From Mauremys mutica (taxonomy: Eukaryota > Chordata > Testudines > Geoemydidae): DNA of 64,000 nt. Positions 24,932 through 29,222 of this stretch are shown here, piece by piece (position 1 is the stretch's first letter; each line of letters opens with the position of its first letter). Where the stretch lies: the NCBI RefSeq assembly GCF_020497125.1, contig NC_059084.1:3561501-3625500 (forward strand), read 5' to 3'. The notes below the pieces were generated by a model, which was not told where the DNA came from, did not search any database, and saw only the letters and a list, made by a program, of their open reading frames with translations. Made by a program: the position numbers and the translations under genes.

Positions 24932-25364
24932 ATGGAAACGGCCGCGGCGGACGGCGGCCGCCGAGGGACACAAAGGCCCGCGGCCGAGAGGAGGCGGCGG
25001 CCGGAGCGGGAGCGGGGCCCGGCGCTGAGGGGCCCCATGGAGCCGGCGGCGGGCGGCGGGGCCGGGGCGCCGCGCTACAGCCTGGTGGCCGAGATCGGGC
25101 GCGGCTCCTACGGGGTGGTGTACGAGGCCGTGTCGGGCCGCAGCGGCGCCCGCCTGGCCGTCAAGCGGATCCGCTGCGACGCGCCCGAGAACGTGGAGCT
25201 GGCGCTGGCCGAGTTCTGGGCCCTGACCAGCCTGCGGCGCCGCCACCCCAACGTGGTGCGCTTCGAGGAGTGCGTGCTGCAGCGCGACGGGCTGGGCCAG
25301 CGCATGAGCCACGGCAACAAGCAGAGCCAGCTGTACCTGCGCCTGGTGGAGACCTCCCTGAAAG
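24932..25364 (+). CDS. STK35: STK35 serine/threonine kinase, first coding segment
   Basis: STK35 (CLIK1) is an NKF4-family kinase related to PDIK1L, reported in the nucleus and, through the PDZ-LIM protein CLP-36, on actin stress fibres. This segment encodes residues 1-144 plus the first base of codon 145. Visible are a basic, low-complexity N-terminus ([10 protein letters not shown], 19-28), the glycine loop GRGSYG (56-61), the ATP-anchoring lysine in LAVK (Lys78) and a likely helix-C glutamate (Glu94). I chose ATG 24932 because its [14 protein letters not shown] context resembles the start of the 401-residue human form; ATG 25037 (MEPAAGG) is an alternative in the same frame. The exon ends AAAG|GTACCG, a weak donor that departs from consensus at +4 to +6. 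It is this exon end that is repeated through the following intron. Joined to 34270-34982 the protein is 381 residues. Confidence 0.93.
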
Positions 25365-27720
25365 GTACCGACCCCCCCGGGACCCCCCCAGCCCTGGGAC
25401 CCCAAACCCCCTCAGCGACCCCCCCGGGACCCCCCCAGCCCTGGGACCCCAACCCCCTCAGCGACCCCCCCCGTGTACCACCTGGGACCCCCCCTCAGCG
25501 ACCCCCCCGGATACCCCCCTAGCTGTACCTGCGCCTGGTGGAGACCTCCCTGAAAGGTAGCGACCCCCCGGGACCCCCCCAGCCCTGGGACCCCAAACCC
25601 CCTCAGCGACCCCCCTGTATACCCCCTGGGACCCCCCCTTATACCCCCCTAGCTGTACCTGCGCCTGGTGGAGACCTCCCTGAAAGGTACCGACCCCCCC
25701 GCCCTGGGACCCCCCCAGCCCTGGGACCCCAAACCCCCTCTGCGACCCCCCAGATCCCCCCAGCCCTGGGACCCTAAACCCCTCCGCGACCCCCCCGTAT
25801 ACCCCCTGGGACCCCCCCTCAGCGACCCCCCCGTATAACCCCCCCCCAGCTGTACCTGCGCCTGGTGGAGACCTCCCTGAAAGGTACCGACCCCCCCCCC
25901 CAGCCCTGGGACCCCAAACCCCCCTCAGCGACCCCCCAGATCCCCCCAGCCCTGGGACCCCAAACCCCCCTCAGCGACCCCCCAGATCCCCCCAGCCCTG
26001 GGACCCCAAACCCCCTCAGCAACCCTCCTGTATAACCCCTGGGACCCCCTCAGCGACCCCCCAGCCCCGGGACCCCGACCCCCCCTCAGCGACCCCCCTG
26101 TATAACCCCTGGGACACCCCCCCTCAGCGACCCCCCCGTATACCCCCCTAGCTGTACCTGCGCCTGGTGGAGACCTCCCTGAAAGGTACCGACCCCCCCA
26201 GCCCTGGGACCCCAACCCCCTCAGCGACCCCCCCTGTATACCCCCTGGGACCGCCCCCCTCAGCGACCCCCCCCGTATACCCCCCTAGCTGTACCTGCGC
26301 CTGGTGGAGACCTCCCTGAAAGGTACCGCCCCCCCCAGCCCTGGGACCCCAAACCCCCTCAGCGACCCCCCCCAGCCCTGGGACCCCAAACCCCCTCAGC
26401 AACCCTCCTGTATACCCCCTGGGACCCCCCCAGCGACCCCCCCAGCCCTGGGACCCCAAACCCCCTCAGCGACCCCCCCAGATCCCCCTAGCCCTGGGAC
26501 CCCAACCCCCCCTCAGCGACCCCTCCCGTATACCCCCTTAGCTGTTCCCGCGCCTGGTGTAGACCTCCCTGAAAGGTACCGCCCCCCCCCCCCCCCGGGT
26601 CCCCAAACCCCCCTCAGCGACCCCCCCGGATTCCCCCAGCCCTGGGACCCCAAACCCCCCTCAGCAACCCCCCCCGTATAACCCCCCCAGCTGTACCTGC
26701 GCCTGGTGGAGACCCCCCTGAAAGGTACCAACCCCCCAGCGACCCCCCCCCAGCCCTGGGACCCCAAACCCCCTCAGCGACCCCCCTGTATACTCCCAGC
26801 CCTGGGACCCCCCTCAGCGACCCCCCCGTATACCCCTCTAGCTGTACCTGCGCCTGGTGGAGACCTCCCTGAAAGGTACCGACCCCCCCCAGGGACCCCC
26901 CCCAGCCCTGGGATCCCAAACCCCCCTCAGCGACCCCCCCTGTATAACCCCTGGGACCCCCCCTCAGCGACCCCCCCCCCCCAGCTGTACCTGCGCCTGG
27001 TGGAGACCTCCCTGAAAGGGACTGACCCCCCCCAGCCCTGGGACCCCAAACCCCCTCAGCGACCCCCTGTATACCCCCCCCCCGCTGTACCTGCGCCTGG
27101 TGGAGACCTCCCTGAAACGTACCGGACCCCAATCCCCCTCAGCGACCCCCCTGTATACTCCCTGGGACACCCCCCCTGTATATGCCCCAGCCTTGGGACC
27201 CCCCTTCAGCGACCCCCCCCCCATACTCCCCCAGCTGTACCTGCGCTTGGTGGAGACCTCCCTGAAAGGTACTTGGACTCCCCCCCCCTCCCCCCCAGCC
27301 CTGGTACTCCCAAAGCCCCCTCAGCGAGCACAGCCCCCCACCTCCACCCCACATAACCCGCCATCAGCTGTACCTACGTCTGGTGGAGACCTCCCTGAAA
27401 GATATCATCCCTTCCGCATAGACACCCCCAAACCCCACTCAACAACCCCCCCATATAACTCCATCTCAGCTACAGCCAGCTGTACTTACGCCTGGTGGAG
27501 ACCTCCCTGAAAGGTACCAGACCCCTGCCCCCCACAGTGCTGGGACCCCAAACACCCCTCAGCAACCGCCTGTATAACACCCCCCCTCAGTGACAGCCAC
27601 AGCCCCCTCTACTTGTGCCTAATGGAGACCTCCCTGAAAGGTACCCCCCAACCATGGAGCCCCCAAACCCCGCTCAGCGACACCCCCCGCCCCCAGTATA
27701 ACCCCCTCTTAGCTACAGCC
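25365..27720 (+). repeat. Exon-derived tandem array, young proximal part
   Basis: A C-rich tandem array whose unit includes the last 34 nt of the STK35 coding exon (it begins 'ctgtacctgcgcctggtgg' and ends 'ctccctgaaag'), followed by the exon's donor and a C-rich spacer. The exon original starts at 25331. Copies start at 25523, 25653, 25850, 26152, 26289, 26542, 26691, 26842, 26985, 27085, 27235, 27368, 27480 and 27607. Those at 25523-26289, 26842 and 26985 are identical to the exon over all 34 nt; most others differ at one to three positions. Spacers are built from 'cagccctgggaccccaaa', 'ccctcagcgacccc' and 'gtataccccc' modules, giving periods of 100-302 bp. Counting the exon, 13 of these 15 copies keep GT at the donor position; 26985 has GG and 27368 has AT. 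Confidence 0.95.
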
Positions 27721-29222
27721 ACAGCCTGCTCTACCTGTGCCTGGTGGAGACCTCCCTAAAAGATACCAGGGCCCCCACAGCAACCCCACATGGTGACCCT
27801 ATAGCCCTGAAACTCCATATGCCTCCACAGCCCTATCAGATCCCCATACACCCCCACAGCAACCTCTGCACCTCCTAAAGCCCTGGGAGCTCCTATACAC
27901 CCCACACAGTGACTCCCAGTCACCCACTGTGCAACATGCAGAGCTAGCTCAACTTGAGCCTGGTGGAGACCTCCCTGAACGTTACTGGGACTCGCCCACA
28001 GGACCTGTACACAGTCCTGGCACCCTTGTAGTTCCCTCACCCCACTTCCTCCCTTCCCCCCCCCCCGACCCTTCATAATACCCATCCATACAGCAACAAG
28101 CTGTCCGCTTTACCTGCACCTGGTGGAGATATCCCTGAGAAGTATTGCTTCCCCCGCCCCCCATCTCCTATATATCCTCAGAGGGATCCTCCATAAACCC
28201 CCTCACACAGCAGCAAGCAGAGACCGCTCTACCTGTATCTGGTATAGGGTCCCCCTCCCCCAACCTCTTCCCCCCCCGTACAACTTCAGCCAGGGGCCTT
28301 CCATAACCCGTATATTCCCACTCAGCTATAAGGAAGACCTGTTCTACTTGTGCCACACCTCTGGGTCCCACTATATGCCCCCACCCCCAGTGAAGGAGGG
28401 AGGCTTCCATACCTCTCATAGGGATTCCTTCTCATACACCCAGCAACAGGCAGTCAACTATGCATGTTCCTCAGGGAGAACTTTCTGAAAGATAATTAGA
28501 ATCCTACACATGGGTACCACCCTTGAGGGCCCTGCCCCTCCTCCAGTGGGACCCACCTCATTTGTAATAAGCAGAGCCAGCCTTATCTGAGTCTGGAGAC
28601 CTGGCAGAAAGGTCGTGGGGGCTCCCCTCGGGGCCCTCGTACAGTCCCTGTCGTGGAGTCCTTCCCTGGAAATTGGGGAAAGAGGTTCCCCAAGACAATA
28701 TTCTTCCCTGAAAGAGTCCGGTATGTTCTCCCCTACCCTAGAAACTCTCTCAGGCAGAGAGGTCCAGAAGCCACCCCCTCTCCTTCAGACCTTCCCTCCC
28801 CTCATGGCAACAAGTGGAGCCAATTGTATAGGAAAGTAAAGATTCTGGTGCAGGAAGCTGTAAATTGGGGAGACTACCCTGGGACCCCCTTCCTATCCTG
28901 AGGGAGCGACATGCACTGCGTTGCAACAATCAACGCCAGCTTGAACCTGCAATTGGTGAATTTCTCCCTCAAAACTACTGCACCCCCCCCCCCATCCTCC
29001 CCATACCTAGCCTGTCATCACAGACCTGTCAGTAAGCTTGAGTTCTGTTATTTGCTAGGTGAAGAACCCTGTATGCTCCAAAATGCATTGGTCTCCCCCC
29101 CGCAAAAAAAAAACCCTCAATAGCTTGCAGCTCAGTTACCTCCAAGGCTATGTAACTTACACTGATAGGTGCTTTGAAGTAGGTAAACAGGTGGGGGAGA
29201 CCTCACCGAAAGCTACGGTACC
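27721..29222 (+). repeat. Exon-derived tandem array, decayed distal part
   Basis: The same unit continues with growing divergence. Recognisable copies start at 27729, 27948, 28108, 28227 (truncated), about 28331, 28463, 28580, 28805, 28923 and 29190. Unlike the young copies, several keep exon sequence from further upstream: 'gcaacaagctgtccg' at 28093, 'gcaagcagagacc' at 28213, 'gcagagccag' at 28571, 'ggcaacaagtggagcc' at 28805 and 'gcaacaatcaacgccag' at 28923. These correspond to the exon's 'ggcaacaagcagagccag' (25313-25330). Splice donors are mostly lost and the spacers are less C-rich, so this is the old end of the array. Confidence 0.82.

Follow-up and report, generated by a model that had tools for sequence, protein, structure and literature searches.

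A kinase gene and the array at its exon end

We analysed a window of 64,000 nucleotides from Mauremys mutica (contig NC_059084.1, positions 3,561,501 to 3,625,500, forward strand), in which a protein kinase domain is split over two coding exons, with a match to Pfam PF00069 in each (Table 1). The authentic donor at 25365 and the acceptor before 34270 join these exons in frame and give a 381-residue protein, which we take to be STK35; the host gene looks like a conserved kinase. A search of the PDB matched 2467 sequences, none of them named STK35 among the 60 listed. Viral contigs probed with the protein of the next exon gave 8 pattern matches with no relative among them, and a literature search on STK35 in turtles found no paper. 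In the available part of one report, STK35L1 genes are described with three exons and two introns, the human gene having a 13.3-kb intron (PMC2737284). The exon at 24932-25364 would be exon 2 of STK35.

Minisatellites consist of head-to-tail units of roughly 10-200 bp present in many copies. The array that starts at the 3' end of the first of the two exons is a minisatellite by its head-to-tail units, 18 of them if the exon is included, and it is also called by TRF. An ungapped search with a 38-mer, made up of AG, the last 34 exon nucleotides and GT, found 17 intronic places with at most 7 mismatches, starting from 25521 to 28106; in 30 first-order Markov sequences with the intron as model, no match had fewer than 15 mismatches. 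All 17 of these clear copies are on the plus strand, spanning 25521-28143, in agreement with the first-pass annotation of this DNA, which had counted at least 17 further copies of the exon end in the intron, in one orientation. It had also described a tandem repeat unit that extends across the exon-intron boundary and so multiplies the splice donor; this too holds, the first unit (unit 0) being the real exon end and containing the authentic donor. Seven copies had been called identical to the exon over the 34 nucleotides, and all seven are exact, but the one at 26985 is followed by GG and not by GT. Start-to-start distances (n = 17) run from 100 to 302 with a median of 149, and three exceed 200.

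Beyond the clear copies the array continues in decayed form. Three more places were found by the ungapped search, at 28456 (13 mismatches), 28939 (14) and 29177 (16, no better than the nulls). With gaps allowed, the intron yields 23 matches between 25521 and 29216. The best of 140 Markov nulls scored 34; 21 of the matches exceed this value and two, at 28803 and 29192, do not. Six decayed matches therefore lie past the 17 clear copies, four of them above every null. A search of the whole 64 kb with a unit profile recovered the same array, with a final match at 29192-29247 (E 2.4e-4) and no other match at E<0.1. Rfam, at gathering scores, gave no match, a tRNA scan found none, and no viral contig matched a 22-nt piece of the core. 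The array is both larger and older than first described, because its decayed copies still show exon sequence 5' of the 34 nucleotides.

Table 1. Positions of the coding exons and of the repeat units in the window
Feature	Position	Strand	Detail
Kinase exon, coding part from ATG to donor, ends in phase 1	24932..25364	+	Pfam PF00069 positions 1-71
Source copy (unit 0): AG, last 34 exon nt, authentic GT	25329..25366	+	donor 9-mer AAGGTACCG
Young zone	25365..27270	+	11 copies, 0-3 mismatches in 38
Young-zone copy starts	25521, 25651, 25848, 26150, 26287, 26540, 26689, 26840, 26983, 27083, 27233	+	
In-frame TAG on exon read-through, 5' of the first copied donor	25520..25522	+	codon 197
Ageing zone	27366..28143	+	2-7 mismatches; copies at 27366, 27478, 27605, 27727, 27946, 28106
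Seven old copies with extra exon sequence 5' of the 36-nt core	27931..28987	+	upstream-segment score at least 18; copies at 27946, 28106, 28222, 28456, 28579, 28815, 28939
Oldest decayed copies	28206..29216	+	gapped alignment against null maximum 34; unit-profile matches
Decayed copy	28206-28243	+	gapped score 44
Decayed copy	28443-28494	+	gapped score 36
Decayed copy	28566-28613	+	gapped score 50
Decayed copy	28803-28828	+	gapped score 32
Decayed copy	28898-28987	+	gapped score 56
Decayed copy	29192-29216	+	gapped score 34
Next coding exon: remaining kinase domain and stop	34270..34982	+	Pfam PF00069; TTTCTTTCTTTTGTAAG directly before 34270

Age order and turnover of the units

The copies are ordered along the intron. 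Mismatches to the exon increase with distance from it (Spearman rho 0.87 over the 17 intronic copies), the five copies nearest the exon being exact, and the sharing of 7-mers between spacers declines along the same axis as the core accumulates mismatches. Spacers in the young zone measure 62-264 nt, contain 54-64% C and are built of a repeat of their own with a sub-unit of about 46 nt; those of the ageing zone can be partly aligned to the young ones up to about 28071, some of them weakly, by unit profile and gapped alignment. At 25896-26025 a spacer has grown internally by the 46-nt sub-unit, with a 74-bp exact repeat of 25896 at 25942. Since spacers expand internally in this way, spacer length varies independently of copy number.

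C-rich DNA of low complexity is difficult to sequence and assemble, and the array might be an artefact, the exon end having been multiplied by an assembly loop or by wrongly joined reads. A loop, though, would be expected to produce long identical copies without a gradient. The longest exact repeat here is 74 bp, only three exact pairs reach 60 bp, and neither the ordered decay nor the longer exon part of the old copies resembles the product of a loop, so that an artefact is extremely unlikely. The lengths of C runs in the array may be affected by sequencing error.

The longer exon part distinguishes old copies from young. The exon segment upstream of the 36-nt core scores at least 18 in 7/7 old copies against 0/15 younger ones, where the cut-off of 18 is the 99th percentile of two nulls with maxima of 28 and 22 and the match at 29192 was left out. 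This segment lies 0-6 nt from the core and begins at exon position -49 to -55, or at -73 in the copy at 28898. Because the old copies carry it and the younger ones do not, an early unit probably included some 50 exon nucleotides or more, and later units 36. Among ten old copies, the majority differs from the exon and donor side at only two positions, -59 and intron +5 (5/9 in each case). The CTC change, in the first Leu codon, is not one of these two, so that the preservation of an ancestral exon state in the old copies, for example of CTC in that codon, is a guess.

Core and spacer diverge alike. In the first ten young copies, 7/380 core sites and 18/1002 sites of the spacer sub-unit are divergent (p = 1.0); turnover therefore involves whole units, with no special preservation of the core. 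The comparison bears directly on gene conversion from the exon, by which the cores of nearby copies would be rewritten while the spacers evolve separately. Such conversion would account for young cores that match the exon exactly or almost exactly as far as the AG, with a 5' flank unlike the exon. The young spacer sub-units are nonetheless as homogeneous as the cores, and spacer similarity drops with the same distance, so that whole units move and the conversion reading is unlikely; core-only conversion as the main process was discarded on the equal homogeneity of the spacers. Some conversion between exon and array is possible, given the match of the young cores through the AG and not beyond it, and would make copies look young.

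Splice signals in the copies

The multiplication of the donor proposed in the first-pass annotation applies to most copies as far as the GT is concerned, which is in place in 13/17 clear copies, but AG and GT are both kept in only 10/17. The authentic donor, AAG/GTACCG (25362-25370), is weak, with 6/9 matches to the consensus, and its exact 9-mer recurs in 6 copies and at one unrelated place, 18369. Sites with GGTACC (KpnI) number 11 at 25686-29217, nine of them at copied donors of the 17 clear copies, in addition to the site at the authentic donor (25364).

The spliceosome could use the copies as alternative donors or as 34-nt mini-exons, and the resulting nonproductive transcripts would tune kinase output. 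The ten copies with both dinucleotides and the six with the exact donor agree with such use, as do the GT sites of the array, only 3/137 of which match the consensus better than the authentic donor, and the use of the donor of one ABCA7 VNTR unit in the available part of PMC5954066. Modelled isoforms are in keeping with it as well: a 34-nt insertion shifts the reading frame, and every isoform stops early, at codon 157 if one mini-exon is included, at 166 for two or three, and at 197 when the exon is extended to the first copied donor. Against this, AG and GT are lost faster than the other core positions, with mismatches in 9/68 cells of these columns and in 29/578 elsewhere (Fisher p = 0.012, for copies that are not independent). 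Moreover, the core is conserved no better than the spacers, the AG comes after tracts rich in C, not U, and its next base is C, and 12/296 GT sites in the rest of the intron are closer to the consensus than the copies. Such use by the spliceosome is thus decidedly improbable.

Two further candidates were set aside. The copies are not conserved as exons: their splice dinucleotides and exon sequence are no better kept than the surroundings, the AG and GT decaying faster, and their inclusion does not keep the frame, which 34 nt must shift. Read-through, or an in-frame expansion of the peptide, is ruled out by the stop at 25520 and by the frame shifts.

A last reading makes the array a dosage device, in which ten AG/GT cassettes, six with the exact donor 9-mer, compete for splicing, the length of the array sets the amount of full-length kinase, and the decaying end is a time-ordered record of the past exon end. 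We regard this as highly improbable. If it were true, misuse would lead to a premature stop and the length of the array would change fast.

On the sequence at hand, we take the multiplied donors to be passengers that give rise, if to anything, to low levels of aberrant transcripts with a broken frame. Stray use at some level is plausible because AG and GT both persist in ten copies, six of them with the authentic 9-mer, and because RNA from the ABCA7 VNTR, in the available part of the report, showed one unit retained through its donor.

Growth of the array and its relatives

The array is most likely neutral. We think it probable that a neutral C-rich minisatellite arose here from a tandem duplication across the kinase exon's 3' boundary and then grew mainly on the exon side, with later units added near the exon. 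Purifying selection would fix unit 0, while distal units, no longer renewed, would decay. The engine may be unequal exchange or replication repair, aided by G-quadruplexes on the minus strand, and the adjoining CpG-rich promoter side perhaps also helps the addition of units. We infer growth, polarity and polymorphism from one sequence, in which no two units are identical.

The minus strand of the array is G-rich, with a strong G-quadruplex potential that drops from the young zone to the older ones. G4Hunter scores of -1.2 or lower were obtained in 75% of scoring windows in the young zone, 35% in the mid zone and 10% in the old zone. Outside the array, 9% of scoring windows in the CpG-rich stretch that holds the exon reach this level, as do 1-2% in the remaining intron and in the two flanks, 1-22900 and 35000-64000. 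The human minisatellites CEB1 and CEB25, as described in the available text, are likewise GC-rich with a G-rich strand; they differ in having been studied for their instability in yeast, while the potential of the kinase array is known from its sequence. In the parts of the reports available, G4-forming CEB1 is unstable in yeast without Pif1 (PMC2673046) and, in some minisatellites, the active end falls at a recombination hotspot (PMC2599865). These two cases suggest candidate engines of growth here.

The direction of growth was explored with a toy birth-death simulation in which the exon unit stayed fixed (200 runs at each of nine rate settings, with arbitrary rates). Runs that ended outside 12-28 units or without variation were dropped, and an undefined rho, which occurred in four settings, was counted as below the observed value. 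A rho of at least 0.87 was reached in 4/1511 kept runs with uniform duplication, 18/1655 with exon-biased and 76/1703 with exon-anchored duplication. An earlier simulation pointed in the same direction, with 0/123 kept runs under uniform duplication and about 3% of 125 under exon-biased duplication. These models favour growth at the exon end and do not prove it. Even under exon-anchored growth, a gradient as strong as that of the array appeared in just about 4% of the kept runs.

The first-pass annotation had been aware of no such array in this gene or in others. Two precedents were found in print, human CBS and ABCA7, as far as the available parts of the reports go. The CBS VNTR, c.1444_1467+7(16_21), is by its name a 31-bp unit of 24 exon and 7 intron nucleotides in 16-21 copies (PMC2630376), placed at exon 13-intron 13 in a table of PMC1395315. 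Like the kinase unit, the CBS unit by its name covers both the end of the exon and its donor, and its copies differ by single bases. In the available text it is, however, invariably 31 bp and polymorphic in people, whereas the kinase array has 34-36 exon nucleotides per unit (about 50 or more in the old units), spacers of 62-264 nt and a strong age zoning.

The ABCA7 array, in intron 18, is described in the available part of PMC5954066 as a C-rich VNTR that opens with the two bases of the exon 18 donor and has a 25-bp unit in 12 to about 427 copies. Use of the donor one unit downstream gives an out-of-frame transcript, and longer alleles show alternative splicing with more skipping of exon 19. 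Both arrays are C-rich, intronic, of low complexity and start at the splice donor of an exon; the ABCA7 unit begins at the GT and repeats no exon sequence in the text available, whereas the kinase unit includes exon sequence.

A looser resemblance is to intron gain by tandem duplication of AGGT-containing segments, for which the available part of PMC4974935 gives ATP2A1, 24-bp repeats in fission yeast and the potato RdRp. There too, tandem duplication multiplies splice signals, and in the potato case it crosses an intron-exon boundary. Those duplications, as there described, created a new intron, whereas the kinase copies sit in an existing one and leave the protein unchanged if the authentic donor is used.

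The array is real, unusual and of a kind already known. What sets it apart from its precedents is the share of exon sequence, the length of the spacers and the distinct order of ages. Among donor-multiplying repeats it is a further case, long and well zoned. With unit 0 under coding selection and the other units apparently free, it offers a natural test of how a minisatellite starts and which end grows, and of how the spliceosome chooses the right donor among equals. Since the length of the ABCA7 array alters splicing, in the available part of that report, a locus with six exact donor copies would be a useful test gene.

A second C-rich minisatellite, with C on the same strand, lies at 22977-23949, roughly 1 kb upstream of the kinase exon's coding part. 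The profile of the exon unit found no match in it. Its periods overlap and include 28-38 nt and 132-187 nt, and G4Hunter scores of -1.2 or lower cover 94% of its scoring windows, a stronger signal than that of the array at the exon end.
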